This document shows, piece by piece, positions 19,083 through 25,402 of a stretch of 64,000 bases of DNA. This stretch comes from Pseudomonas fulva 12-X (GTDB lineage Bacteria > Pseudomonadota > Gammaproteobacteria > Pseudomonadales > Pseudomonadaceae). Position numbers and translations under genes: made by a program. The stretch lies in contig NC_015556.1 of NCBI RefSeq assembly GCF_000213805.1, positions 992,001 through 1,056,000 of the forward strand, written 5' to 3'. The notes below the pieces were generated by a model. It saw only the letters and a program-made list of their open reading frames with translations. It did not search any database and was not told the DNA's origin. Each line of letters starts with the position of its first letter. The first letter of the stretch is position 1.

Positions 19083-19577
19083 TCACGCCGGGCGGGCGGT
19101 ATACAGTCGGGCGAAGCCATGCAGCAGCGGCAGCATGGCCGCCCAGATCACCGCCAGCAGCGCCAGGGTCACGGCAGTGCCGTAGGGCAGATGAACCAGG
19201 CCGAGTCCCAGGCTGGCGCCGTGGGTGAGCAGTGCGAGAACGGCGCCAACCAGGCTGGCGCGCCACCAGGGCTTGGCTGTCCAGGCCAGGCCGTGGCACA
19301 GCGTGGTGCCGATCAGCAGCCAGACCAGCGCGTGCGACAGCGGAATCAGTTGGCGCGGTGCGCCGAAGTCCAGCACCCCGAGCTGCAGCAGAAAACTTTC
19401 CACCGCACTGCCGAACAGAAACGCACTTATCAGCAGCTTGCCTTCACGTTGCCAGTTGCCCACCCGGATCAGATGCACCAGCAGTACCACAGCAACCACC
19501 CATAGCCAGTCGCCGCCAAGCAGGCAGGCGATCCAGCCGATTAAGAACAGCAGGGCGTTGAGCAGGTTTTTAGACAC
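19083..19577 (-). CDS. DUF2878 integral membrane protein
   Basis: 164 residues from a GTG start at 19577, with about six predicted membrane helices and almost no loops. It fits the DUF2878 family, often found near photolyase, cyclopropane-fatty-acid synthase and DUF1365 genes in gamma-proteobacteria. That matches the photolyase operon just upstream. The function is unknown. It is 78 bases after the SDR gene and may be the end of the same transcript. Confidence 0.75.
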   Translation of the reverse strand: MSKNLLNALLFLIGWIACLLGGDWLWVVAVVLLVHLIRVGNWQREGKLLISAFLFGSAVESFLLQLGVLDFGAPRQLIPLSHALVWLLIGTTLCHGLAWTAKPWWRASLVGAVLALLTHGASLGLGLVHLPYGTAVTLALLAVIWAAMLPLLHGFARLYTARPA

Positions 19578-19655: not shown

Positions 19656-20426
19656 TCAGGAGATGTCCCGTTCGCCTCGGATCAGGCGGCGACCCAGAGC
19701 CAGGCGCAGGCGCGCGGGGAGCCGACCAAGCAGGCCCAGCGCGGCGATGAACGGGCCGGGAAAGGCAATTTCCAGCGGGCGCGCGTGCAGGCGCTTGGCG
19801 ATATGCCGGGCGGCCTTGTCCGCTGACCAGCGCATCGGTGTTGAGTAGCCGCTGTTTTCCGAGTGCGCCGTGTCGACGAAACCGGGTGTGACCACGGTAA
19901 CGGCGATGCCCTCTTGGGCCAGGTCCACACGCAGGGACTCGAGCAGATAGCGTACCGCGGCCTTGGCGGCCCCGAAGGCGCCGGCGCCCGGCAGCGGCAG
20001 ATAGGTAACCGCGCTGGCGACACCGACCAGGTGCGGCGCCTGGCCGCGACGCAGCAGCGGCAGGGCTGCGACGATGCAGTGGCTGGCGGAGAACAGGTTG
20101 CCGCGCATCACCCGCGCCAGGGCATCGGCCTCGAAGTTGCTGGCGTCCACATGTTCATAGACCCCGGCATTGAGGATCGCGCAGTCCAGTGCGCCCCAGT
20201 GTTCGGTGAGCTTGGCGGCAATGGCATCCACGTCGTCCGGCTCGCCCAGGTCGCCCGGCAGCACCAGCACCCGACCCGGAAAACGCTCGGCCAGCGCTTG
20301 CAGGGGTTCCTCTCGGCGTGCGCTCAGAGCCAGCAGATGCCCTTCTTTCAGCAGGCGCTTGGCCAGGGCATGGCCGATGCCACTGCTGGCACCGGTCAGC
20401 CAGATGCGCCGGCTGAACGCGCTCAT
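19656..20426 (-). CDS. Short-chain dehydrogenase/reductase with altered catalytic Tyr
   Basis: 256 residues. The cofactor motif TGASSGIG is at residues 11-18, NAG follows near 87, and SAVTY near 139 carries the family serine. In the active-site YxxxK the tyrosine is phenylalanine (FGAAK near residue 152; codon TTC read directly), while the lysine stays. A normal SDR needs that tyrosine, so the enzyme may be inactive, use another residue, or act as a binding protein. It overlaps the photolyase stop by ATGA and belongs to that operon. A C-terminal basic hydrophobic tail may touch the membrane. Confidence 0.88.
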   Translation of the reverse strand: MSAFSRRIWLTGASSGIGHALAKRLLKEGHLLALSARREEPLQALAERFPGRVLVLPGDLGEPDDVDAIAAKLTEHWGALDCAILNAGVYEHVDASNFEADALARVMRGNLFSASHCIVAALPLLRRGQAPHLVGVASAVTYLPLPGAGAFGAAKAAVRYLLESLRVDLAQEGIAVTVVTPGFVDTAHSENSGYSTPMRWSADKAARHIAKRLHARPLEIAFPGPFIAALGLLGRLPARLRLALGRRLIRGERDIS

Positions 20427-21874
20427 GACGCCTCGCTGGCCGAAGGCAGGTTCTTGAAGGCGTCCAGCGCGCGCTGGCGGCTGGCGCGCAGGTCGACGAT
20501 GGGCTTGGGGTAATCCACACCGCCACCGAACAGGCTGGCTTGGCCCTTGCTGCCGGCATGCGGGTCGTGAATCGTCTTATCGCTGAGCGAGGCCAGTTCG
20601 GGCAGCCATTGGCGGATGAAGCGGCCGTCCGGGTCGAAACGCTGTGACTGGCTGATCGGGTTGAAGATGCGGAAGTAGGGCACCGAGTCGGTACCGGTCG
20701 AGGCGCTCCACTGCCAGCCACCGTTGTTGGCAGCCAGGTCGCCGTCGATCAGGTGGCGCATGAAGAAGCGCTCGCCCTCGCGCCAGTCGATCAGCAGGTT
20801 CTTGGTCAGGAACATCGCCACCACCATGCGCAGGCGGTTGTGCATCCAGCCGGTTTCCAAGAGCTGACGCATGGCTGCGTCGATGATCGGGATGCCGGTG
20901 CGGCCTTCCTGCCAGGCCTGCAGATCCTTGGCAGCGTTGCGCCAGGGCAGCGCTTCGGTTTCCGGGCGGAAGGCGCGGGCCATGGAAACGTGCGGGTAGC
21001 CGACCAGAATATGGGCGTAGAACTCGCGCCAGATCAGCTCGTTGATCCAGGTAACGGCGCCCTGGTTGCCGTTTTCGAACTCACCGCCGTTGGCATTCAG
21101 CGCCGCGTGCAGGCACTGGCGCGGCGACAGCACGCCGGCGGCGAGATAGGCCGAGAGCTGGCTGGTGCCGGGGCGAATCGGGAAGTCGCGATTGTCGTGG
21201 TAGTCCTCGATCCACTCGTCGGCGAAGCGCTGCAGGCGTTCGCGGGCCGCATCTTCGCCGGCGGGCCAGGCATCGCGCAGCGCCTGGCTGGGCGTATCGA
21301 AACCGGCCACTTGCTCAGGGATCGGGTCGGCGGCCATCTCCAGCTTGGCCTGCGCCTTGGGCGGCGCTACCAGTTTCGGCAGGGCGGTGTGCAGACGCTG
21401 ATAGCAGACGCCGCGGAACTGACTGTAGACCTTGAAGTAGGTACCGGTGCGGGTCAGCACGCTGCCTGGCTTGAATAGCAGGCGATCGAGATGGCTGTGG
21501 AAATTCACGCCCAGCTCGTCCAACGCCGCGCTCACGGCTTCATCACGGCGGCTTTCGTTGACGCCATATTCCTCGTTCACGTGCACGGCGCTTGCCTGCA
21601 GCTCCTGTGCGAGAGTGCCGATCACCTTTGGCGCGGCGCTCCACTGGTCGGCTTCGCGAATCAGCAGCGGCACGTTGAGGCGCTTCAGCTCGCGGCTCAG
21701 CTCGACCAGGTTGCGCAGCCAGAAATCCACTTTGCAGGGCGCATCGTCATGCTGCTGCCATTGGCCGGGGCTGAGCAGAAACACCGCGACCGTCGGCCCG
21801 GCCTGCATGGCGGCGGCCAGAGCGCTGTTGTCGGTGACACGCAGGTCAGTTCGAAACCACATCAGTTGCAGCAT
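20423..21874 (-). CDS. phrB: Deoxyribodipyrimidine photolyase
   Basis: 483 residues. A class I CPD photolyase that uses blue light, FADH and an antenna cofactor to repair pyrimidine dimers. The N-terminal antenna domain begins MLQLMWFRTDLRVTDN; the C-terminal FAD domain has WINELIWREFY, TGWMHNRLRM and NNGGWQWSASTGTDSVPYFR, all conserved. The start ATG 21874 is fixed by the family N-terminus. It sits 8 bases after the MerR-type regulator and overlaps the SDR gene by ATGA. Confidence 0.97.
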   Translation of the reverse strand: MLQLMWFRTDLRVTDNSALAAAMQAGPTVAVFLLSPGQWQQHDDAPCKVDFWLRNLVELSRELKRLNVPLLIREADQWSAAPKVIGTLAQELQASAVHVNEEYGVNESRRDEAVSAALDELGVNFHSHLDRLLFKPGSVLTRTGTYFKVYSQFRGVCYQRLHTALPKLVAPPKAQAKLEMAADPIPEQVAGFDTPSQALRDAWPAGEDAARERLQRFADEWIEDYHDNRDFPIRPGTSQLSAYLAAGVLSPRQCLHAALNANGGEFENGNQGAVTWINELIWREFYAHILVGYPHVSMARAFRPETEALPWRNAAKDLQAWQEGRTGIPIIDAAMRQLLETGWMHNRLRMVVAMFLTKNLLIDWREGERFFMRHLIDGDLAANNGGWQWSASTGTDSVPYFRIFNPISQSQRFDPDGRFIRQWLPELASLSDKTIHDPHAGSKGQASLFGGGVDYPKPIVDLRASRQRALDAFKNLPSASEAS

Positions 21875-21882
21875 GGGGTGTC

Positions 21883-22821
21883 CTATTCGAGCAGATGGCG
21901 ATCTGCGAGGTTTTGCAGCGCCGCCAGCGGGTCGGCGACCACGGTGACATCCGCCGAGGCAGGGGCGCGAGCGACCAGTTGTTCGGCTTCCTGCTGGTTC
22001 TCGATACCGATCAGCAGGCAGGGAATGCCGTGGTCGCCCAGCCACTGTTGCAGCGTCGACTGGGCATCGGTGTTGGAGTCGGCTTCGCAGAACAGCAGCA
22101 GTGCGCGTGGGCGGCGGCGGCTGATGGCCAGCGGCAGTTCGGCAAGCGGCATCGGCCCGTCGAAGGCATCCACCGGGCAACCGGCGGTGCCGATCAGCCA
22201 GGCGCACAGCCACAGCTGGGGCGACATCGGCGACTGGCACAGATTGATCAGCATCAGCGGTTGGCCCGGGTGCTGACGGTTGTCGTGATAGACCCGGGCG
22301 CCGAGCTTGCTGCGCAGCCAGCTGTGCAGGAATAGCCGTTCGGTGGCCGCGCCGGGCAGTTGTGGCCAGCGCGCTTCGAGGGTCACCAGCAATGGCAGCA
22401 GCAGGTGCTGGCAGAGGATCTGCACCGGATAGAGCGCGAGCTCGGCGTTGAAGCGCTCATCCAGCTGGCGCTCGTCCAGGGCGTGGATGGCATCGCACAG
22501 GCGCTCGCGCTTCTCCTGCCACTGCGAAGCCTGCTCGGCAGGCAGCGGCTGGTCGGCGCGCAGCAGGCTCTTCACCTGGCCGACGGAAACGCCGCGGTTC
22601 AGCCAGCCGAGCACGGTCTGGATGGTCTGCACCTGCTCGGGGGAGTACAGGCGGTGACCCTTGGCGGTGCGGTGCGGCACGATCAGGCCGTAGCGGCGCT
22701 CCCAGGCGCGCAGGGTCACCGGGTTGACGCCAGTGATGCTGGCCACGTCGCGAATCGGCAGGTAACCGGCGGCGACCAGGTCCTGCGGGGTGCCTGGCTC
22801 GTTGGAAGTTGGCCGGCTCAT
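21883..22821 (-). CDS. MerR-family transcriptional regulator, LitR/CarH-like
   Basis: 312 residues. An N-terminal MerR helix-turn-helix (about 18-88: YLPIRDVASITGVNPVTLRAWERRYG) is followed by a helical segment and a B12-binding-like Rossmann domain at about 175-310. The ExH and DxHxxG motifs needed to hold cobalamin in CarH/LitR class I are not visible, so it looks like class II LitR, which in P. putida controls light-induced genes with a LOV photosensor. It overlaps the upstream DUF523 gene by ATGA and stands just before phrB, so it probably regulates its own operon. No LOV gene is in this window. Confidence 0.88.
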   Translation of the reverse strand: MSRPTSNEPGTPQDLVAAGYLPIRDVASITGVNPVTLRAWERRYGLIVPHRTAKGHRLYSPEQVQTIQTVLGWLNRGVSVGQVKSLLRADQPLPAEQASQWQEKRERLCDAIHALDERQLDERFNAELALYPVQILCQHLLLPLLVTLEARWPQLPGAATERLFLHSWLRSKLGARVYHDNRQHPGQPLMLINLCQSPMSPQLWLCAWLIGTAGCPVDAFDGPMPLAELPLAISRRRPRALLLFCEADSNTDAQSTLQQWLGDHGIPCLLIGIENQQEAEQLVARAPASADVTVVADPLAALQNLADRHLLE

Positions 22822-23786
22822 ATCGCGTTTCGCAGGCTGAGGTTTTCCGGGTGCGGCTGCAGGTAGACCTGCTGGGCGATGTAGCGATCCGGGTGCTGAC
22901 GGAAATGGTGCTTGAGCAGGGTCAGCGGCACCACCAGCGGGATGATGCCCTTGCGGTACTGGGTGATCAGCTGCTGCATTTCCTGCTTTTCCTCGGCGCT
23001 GAGGGCGCCCTTGAGGTAGCCGCTCAAATGCTGCAACACGTTGCTGTGGGTGCCGCGGGTGGCGCAGCGCTTGAGGGCGGTCATCAGTTCGGCGATATAG
23101 CGGACGGCCAGCTCGTCCAGATCCTGCGCGGAGAGGTCGCTGAGCATGCGGCCCAGGCGCTTGTAGCGCAGCGGGTCGGTGGCCATCAGCAGGTACTTGT
23201 GGCGGGCGTGGAATTCGATCAGCTTGCCGCGGGTCAGGCCCGATTCGCAGAGTGTCTGCCACTGCGAGTAAGTGAATACGCGGGTCAGGAAGTTCTCGCG
23301 CAGCACCGGGTCGTTGAGGCGGCCTTCTTCCTCGATAGGCAGGTTCGGGTGTCGCTCGCAGAGCACGCGGGTGAAGATGCCGCGGCCCTTGGGCTCGCTC
23401 GGGTGGCCGTTGTCCTGGTAGACCTTGACCCGTTCCAGGCCACAGGACGGCGACTGTTGCATGACGATGTAGCCGCTGATCGATGGCAGTTCGGCGGCGA
23501 CCTGTTCACCGTAGGCGGCCAGCGCATCGGTATGATCCTGGTCCGGATGCACGGTGCCTACCACGCGCGGCGCGGCCGGGTCGCCGACCAGACGAATGGG
23601 CTCGCGCGGCGTACCCAGGCCGATGGCCACTTCAGGGCAGTAGGGCACGAAATCGAAGTACTCGCTGAGCTGTTCCAGGCACAACCTCGACGCCTTGTGC
23701 CCACCGTTGTAGCGGACTTCGGCGCCCAGCAGGCAGGCGCTGACGCCAAGTGTGGGTTTTCTGCGGTACTGCGGGCTGACGGACAT
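22818..23786 (-). CDS. DUF523 and DUF1722 (YbbK-YbgA) fusion protein
   Basis: 322 residues. The N-terminal DUF523 domain (about 10-155) has GVSACLLG and SPSCG cysteines; the C-terminal DUF1722 domain (about 185-310) is the YbgA type. Such fusions occur next to photolyase genes in many gamma-proteobacteria, but the function is not established. First gene of the operon DUF523/DUF1722 - merR - phrB - SDR, transcribed from the repeat-rich promoter region upstream. Confidence 0.9.
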   Translation of the reverse strand: MSVSPQYRRKPTLGVSACLLGAEVRYNGGHKASRLCLEQLSEYFDFVPYCPEVAIGLGTPREPIRLVGDPAAPRVVGTVHPDQDHTDALAAYGEQVAAELPSISGYIVMQQSPSCGLERVKVYQDNGHPSEPKGRGIFTRVLCERHPNLPIEEEGRLNDPVLRENFLTRVFTYSQWQTLCESGLTRGKLIEFHARHKYLLMATDPLRYKRLGRMLSDLSAQDLDELAVRYIAELMTALKRCATRGTHSNVLQHLSGYLKGALSAEEKQEMQQLITQYRKGIIPLVVPLTLLKHHFRQHPDRYIAQQVYLQPHPENLSLRNAI

Positions 23787-23806: not shown

Positions 23807-23884
23807 CTTGTACAAGGCTTTGTTTCTGTACAGGGTTATTTCATCTTAAGCCTGATCTTGTACAAGTCAAATTTCGTGTACAGG
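23807..23884 (-). promoter_or_regulatory. Duplicated TGTACA operator region of the phrB operon
   Basis: On the minus strand the pattern CCTGTACA - 10 bases - CTTGTACAAG occurs twice: half-sites 23877-23884 and 23857-23866, then 23827-23834 and 23807-23816. Equivalent sites are exactly 50 bases apart, about five helical turns. A -35 TTGACT (23865-23870) and -10 TAAGAT (23843-23848), 16 bases apart, overlap the upstream unit, so one palindrome lies at the -35/spacer, where MerR-type regulators bind. The 28-bp unit is a strong candidate for binding by the operon's own LitR-like protein (inference). Confidence 0.75.

Positions 23885-23918: not shown

Positions 23919-25402
<1,484 letters not shown>

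Follow-up and report, generated by a model that had tools for sequence, protein, structure and literature searches.

A probable two-site class II LitR operator at the rudS-litR-phrB promoter of Pseudomonas fulva 12-X and its spacing across the genus

The PplR1 sites of Pseudomonas putida KT2440 were reportedly described by Sumi et al. in 2020 (J Bacteriol). In Pseudomonas mendocina NBRC 14162, the promoter P6650 was mapped and footprinted with DNase I in 2022; as given in the text of that study, it consists of TTGACT and TATGAT separated by 16 bp, with a transcription start 48 bp before the ATG (PMC9758184). Two sites of the form TGTACA-N12-TGTACA are described there, Site 1 over the -35 hexamer and Site 2 between +1 and the ATG, and one broad footprint extends across both, from +32 to -45 on one strand and from +37 to -54 on the other (PMC9758184). 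In vitro, the class II LitR protein PmlR2 acted as a repressor of transcription, an effect relieved by illuminated PmSB-LOV; PmlR2, the footprinted protein, is a paralogue of the operon-encoded PmlR1, and the LOV sensor is encoded elsewhere (PMC9758184). In surface plasmon resonance, binding of PmlR2 was seen with Site 2 by itself. One gel shift in the light gave a stable LitR-LOV-DNA complex, contrary to the surface plasmon resonance result, which the authors prefer (PMC9758184). P6650 drives a predicted nine-gene light-induced operon whose members include pmlR1, phrB and ufaM (PMC9758184). In three named P. mendocina loci rudS precedes litR1 and phrB, and from these we infer that the P6650 operon also begins with rudS. 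RudS itself has been assigned to a phrB-litR operon under light control and has been tied to the removal of 4-thiouridine from tRNA (PMC11417400).

For P. putida, the same 2022 text quotes a PplR1 consensus of T(G/A)TACA-N12-TGTA(C/T)A, lists phrB and pplR1 among the light-induced genes of KT2440, and states that B12 was reported to be unnecessary (PMC9758184). The PplR1 sites resemble those of the window, by which we mean the whole 64-kb stretch of P. fulva DNA analysed here, in carrying this consensus at light-induced genes. Loci named as P. putida differ from the window in a degenerate upstream site (TATACA...TGCATA), although the 50-bp spacing is retained in two of them (L082 and L089); no site pair was found within the set limits at a third (L097). 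The CarH and CarA proteins of Thermus and Myxococcus share with this system membership of the MerR-type repressor superfamily, an operator over the -35 hexamer and repression in the dark, and CarA is further like class II LitR in being relieved by an antirepressor protein (PMC8156234). CarH, however, binds 11-bp direct repeats and senses light through B12 (PMC8156234), whereas the half-sites of the window recur at a distance of 18 bp and a separate LOV protein is the presumed sensor.

The probable double operator and its operon in the window

An earlier note on this DNA had pointed to a 28-bp unit, CCTGTACA-N10-CTTGTACAAG, occurring twice at a distance of 50 bp, with a -35/-10 pair (TTGACT, 16-bp spacer, TAAGAT) overlapping the upstream copy. 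Both copies are present on the minus strand (23834-23807 and 23884-23857) with identical fixed letters and unlike N10 parts, and the promoter pair was found at 23870..23843. The true unit is TGTACA-N12-TGTACA, the conserved core of the 28-bp unit being a pair of TGTACA hexamers separated by 12 bp. The resulting features are as follows, where frequencies refer to the 52 perfect rudS-type double sites described below:

23859..23882, minus strand: operator Site 1, TGTACA-N12-TGTACA with 0 mismatches; overlaps the -35 hexamer and is placed relative to the promoter like Site 1 of P. mendocina P6650
23809..23832, minus strand: operator Site 2, TGTACA-N12-TGTACA with 0 mismatches; between the predicted transcription start and the rudS ATG, as Site 2 of P6650
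23865..23870, minus strand: -35 hexamer TTGACT, inside Site 1; TTGACT in 49/52
23843..23848, minus strand: -10 hexamer TAAGAT, 16 bp from the -35 hexamer; TATGAT or TAAGAT in 46/52

Taken by itself, the decamer CTTGTACAAG is unremarkable: allowing one mismatch, it has two matches in the window, both exact, where 0.59 are expected, and 15 of 100 shuffles of the window reach two. The full TGTACA-N12-TGTACA pattern with up to two mismatches occurs six times against 0.55 expected, a number that none of 100 shuffles reached. The whole genome (4,920,769 bases) holds no exact copies besides Site 1 and Site 2, and copies with one mismatch occur at four more places. The sigma-70-like arrangement TTGACT-16-TAAGAT on the minus strand is found once (0.1 expected), and Site 2 starts 10 bp past its -10 hexamer. 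Counting 48 bp upstream of the ATG at 23786, the distance described for P6650, would place the transcription start at about 23834, between the -10 hexamer and Site 2. Equivalent bases of the two sites lie 50 bp apart; the earlier description of this distance as about five turns was loose, as 50 bp corresponds to a non-integer 4.76 helical turns at 10.5 bp per turn.

Compared with the text description of P6650, the window has the same TTGACT hexamer, 16-bp spacer, two TGTACA-N12-TGTACA sites and placement of Site 1 and Site 2, and differs in its -10 hexamer (TAAGAT versus TATGAT) (PMC9758184). The spacing is 50 bp in the window and in three other P. mendocina loci (with 0, 1 and 2 mismatches), and the exact value for NBRC 14162 is absent from the text of PMC9758184. 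Both window sites conform to the class II LitR (PplR/PmlR type) consensus T(G/A)TACA-N12-TGTA(C/T)A, and their layout, with one site over the -35 hexamer and one between the predicted +1 and the ATG of a litR-phrB operon, is that of class II LitR promoters. From the described gene order and the three P. mendocina rudS-litR-phrB loci with the pair at 50 bp, we regard the window promoter as the counterpart of P6650, which is known here by its text description. The light-switch reading of the earlier note, with a class II LitR as the regulator, fits and was right in outline. The accompanying remark that no published consensus was known for the arrangement did not hold, because TGTACA-N12-TGTACA, present twice at P6650, and the earlier PplR1 consensus are both in print (PMC9758184).

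The operon had been read as encoding its own MerR/LitR-like regulator together with phrB. Both genes are present, but the first gene is rudS, and the order is rudS, litR1, phrB, a short-chain dehydrogenase gene and perhaps a DUF2878 gene:

22818..23786, minus strand: rudS, TudS desulfidase (PF04463) fused to DUF1722 (PF08349), from domain matches; first gene of the operon
21883..22821, minus strand: litR1, class II LitR-like MerR regulator of 312 aa, from family and structure matches
20423..21874, minus strand: phrB, deoxyribodipyrimidine photolyase of 483 aa, NF007955 above cut-off
19656..20426, minus strand: short-chain dehydrogenase (SDR), from a family match
19083..19577, minus strand: DUF2878 protein, possible last gene at the predicted end of the operon

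The fusion of a TudS desulfidase domain to DUF1722, which identifies RudS, is seen in the first gene, whose closest named relative found is from Pseudomonas straminea (98% identity). LitR1 carries a MerR DNA-binding domain (PF13411, 4.6e-17). Its middle part matches B12-binding_2 (PF02607) at 21.9 bits, below the cut-off of 23, and no B12-binding domain of Pfam was matched at E <= 0.001; against the CarH equivalog model it scores 59.1 bits, where the cut-off is 400. This domain make-up and the low CarH score fit what is expected of a class II LitR. The ufaM gene was not found in the window operon and seems to be missing from the genome, in which CMAS has one partial match elsewhere (39.1 bits, over cut-off) covering positions 56-173 of 273 (118 positions).

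A second litR (litR2) lies elsewhere in the genome and is 38% identical to litR1 over the aligned part. About 0.7 kb from it, with one ORF between, is a gene for a 151-aa short LOV protein, and a folM-like gene and folE are nearby. The 151-aa protein has only PAS-type matches, without an effector domain, and contains DCRFLQ, which we take to be the LOV motif with the photoactive cysteine. Among solved structures, those of 'sensory box' proteins are matched at 5e-57 to 1e-68, and they presumably include Pseudomonas short LOVs such as 3sw1. The region is like the pmlR2 / pmSB-LOV region described for P. mendocina, so that both genomes have an operon with litR and phrB, and a litR2 with a short LOV elsewhere (PMC9758184).

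Conservation and spacing across Pseudomonas

Perfect double sites at a spacing of 40-60 bp were found in 66 of 199 Pseudomonas genomes (46 at 50 bp, 8 at 49, 11 at 51 and 1 at 46), which puts 65 of the 66 at 49-51 bp; these counts are of non-independent events, as the species are related and kinship was ignored. A control with the reversed pattern gave 0/199 genomes. No perfect pairs at 24-39 bp were found in the 199 genomes, and the range of 61-90 bp gave a single genome (G037, at 85 bp). A rudS match is present in 193/199 genomes and the perfect double site is absent from 133/199, in which the sites may be degenerate or absent. When 80 named rudS loci were analysed, 55 had a pair at 49-51 bp (47 of them at 50 bp) and 27 were perfect; one of the remainder has a pair at 33 bp and 24 have none within the set limits, while 50 shuffles per region produced no pairs across the 80 loci. 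Conservation of the unit and its 50-bp period upstream of orthologous operons, the check that the earlier note proposed, is thus widespread but not universal. Loci without a 49-51 bp pair include those of P. indica and P. oryzihabitans, some P. putida-like loci and the non-Pseudomonas loci L108-L113.

The perfect rudS-type set consists of 52 sites (27 at named and 25 at other loci) with 50 distinct sequences, and the gap from the -10 hexamer to Site 2 is only ever 9, 10 or 11 bp. Because the -35 and -10 hexamers keep fixed offsets from Site 1, the variation in length falls between the -10 hexamer and Site 2. Thirty of the 66 were read as loci, including that of the window; the double site precedes rudS in 25, phrB in one (L013, from a genome in which rudS has no match at 1e-70) and an SDR operon in four (L017, L018, L025 and L031). 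In these four the spacing is 51 bp and the -35 hexamer is in the equal position, so the layout is not bound to one operon. At L031 the double site of the SDR operon has a short LOV gene paired with a litR beside it, and the leading gene of the operon is, we assume from its appearance, NTF2-like.

The perfect double site showed no association with a short LOV (E <= 1e-30), being carried by 60/179 genomes with a short LOV and by 6/20 without one; LOV candidates are part-scored in many genomes, so this result neither supports nor undermines the model. Some perfect pairs depart from the usual setting. The only one at 46 bp (G028, C3:21936-22005) lacks the usual TTGACT beside the second hexamer. 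A further genome (G014) has a perfect double site at 50 bp and no rudS match at 1e-70. The pair at 85 bp (L122, from G037) likewise belongs to a genome that lacks a rudS match at 1e-70. Of the two listed ORFs of at least 90 aa at this 3.1-kb locus, read without a family search, neither could be linked to light.

No comment on site spacing was found in the text of PMC9758184. What this analysis adds is the genus-wide count of this spacing and not a new type of system: together with its two-site geometry, the light switch published for P. mendocina recurs across the genus. A spacing kept within one bp in 65 of the 66 genomes with the perfect double site makes its role testable with simple reporters.

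Proposed regulation and alternative readings

The double site is best explained as the two-site operator and promoter of a rudS-litR-phrB light-response operon, a counterpart of P6650 that would be repressed by LitR in the dark and released by a short LOV in blue light, and we assign this reading a probability of about 0.92. In the dark, a class II LitR would bind Site 1 on the -35 hexamer and Site 2 just past the start, excluding RNA polymerase. In blue light, the short-LOV photoreceptor would form its flavin adduct, bind LitR and remove it from the DNA, allowing expression of RudS, more LitR and photolyase. RudS would then strip photosensitive 4-thiouridine from tRNA, and the extra LitR from litR1 could provide negative feedback. 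The binding, repression and anti-repression steps have been demonstrated in P. mendocina (PMC9758184), and from the matching anatomy we infer that this mechanism carries over to the window genome. The transfer is supported because the sites, the N12 spacer, TTGACT with its 16-bp spacer and the promoter-relative positions match the text description of P6650 (PMC9758184). The litR2 and short-LOV genes of the same genome, conservation in the genus, and reversed-pattern and shuffle controls at zero also point this way. Several observations count against it: the footprinted protein was PmlR2, and a LitR-LOV-DNA complex was seen by gel shift in the light (PMC9758184); 25 of the 80 named loci lack a 49-51 bp pair, 133/199 genomes lack a perfect double site though 193/199 have rudS, and the double site does not track short LOV presence. 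The window element is real, very probably functional and of a kind already known; the reading accounts for the operon and leads us to expect that blue light induces rudS, litR and phrB.

The spacing could carry a further meaning, added to this explanation; the earlier note had considered cooperation or looping. A phased, stereospecific LitR assembly might bridge both sites or wrap the promoter, with the 50-bp period as its geometry, and we consider this possible but less likely than not. The concentration of perfect pairs at 49-51 bp, their scarcity at 24-39 and 61-90 bp and the narrow -10 to Site 2 gap favour such an assembly, as do the single broad footprint over both P6650 sites (PMC9758184) and the related CarA, two dimers of which cooperatively cover about 55 bp (PMC8156234). 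However, the promoter alone fixes both sites, one on the -35 hexamer and one past the start, common descent alone would retain the spacing, Site 2 of P6650 was bound by PmlR2 on its own (PMC9758184), and 50 bp is not a whole number of turns. Near-fixed spacing and a single broad footprint fit joint assembly, but promoter geometry and descent explain the spacing equally well. In a stronger form, the period of about 49-51 bp, found genus-wide and at a second promoter, would be the footprint of a phased LitR assembly that clamps the promoter along its full length (about -54 to +37 in P. mendocina) until the short LOV takes it apart as a single unit; this is speculative and rather unlikely, and if true would make for a sharp light switch.

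Alternatively, LitR1 could act alone as a plain autorepressor that senses light directly through bound B12, in the manner of class I CarH. The position of litR1 in the operon and its match to CarH structures (5c8d, 5.2e-16) lend themselves to this, but the family scores disfavour it: at 59.1 bits LitR1 falls far short of the CarH cut-off of 400, and its B12-binding_2 match stays below threshold. B12 was moreover reported unnecessary in P. putida (PMC9758184). With a litR2 and short-LOV pair also present in the genome, we consider B12 sensing by LitR1 very improbable. A chance origin of the repeats, or an unrelated palindrome such as another regulator's site, might be entertained on the palindromic nature of TGTACA and the weak decamer count, but shuffle controls at zero, conservation in the genus and the footprint at the corresponding promoter (PMC9758184) leave this reading almost no likelihood.

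Further sites

Besides the double site under LitR control as proposed above, a possible third site lies between an FAD oxidoreductase gene and a divergent TIGR01777 gene:

25205..25228, minus strand: possible third, weaker single operator with 2 mismatches, preceding the genes for the FAD oxidoreductase and the TIGR02450 protein
24143..25135, minus strand: FAD-dependent oxidoreductase; may be under the control of the third site
23922..24146, minus strand: TIGR02450 Trp-rich protein, from a family match

In the corresponding stretch, about -1425 to -1545 from rudS, a site with up to two mismatches, often TATACA-N12-TGTATA, is present in 29 of the 32 evaluable loci of L037-L069. The three loci that lack it are L042, L043 and L037, the last being the closest relative, with L047 too short and L070-L116 outside this scope. 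Around the one-mismatch copy at 1372063 of the own genome, the one of the four whose genes were read, nothing ties the genes to light; we take its neighbours to be an oxidoreductase-like gene on one side and two ArsR-like genes on the other. A scan of 4.5 kb around a cryB-like gene of the same genome gave no site with up to two mismatches, and the best full sites upstream of the folM-like gene, where TGTACA half-sites are present, have three mismatches. At a further locus (L120, 6179-6195), two TGTACA hexamers lie 11 bp apart upstream of litR2, perhaps representing another type of regulatory site.
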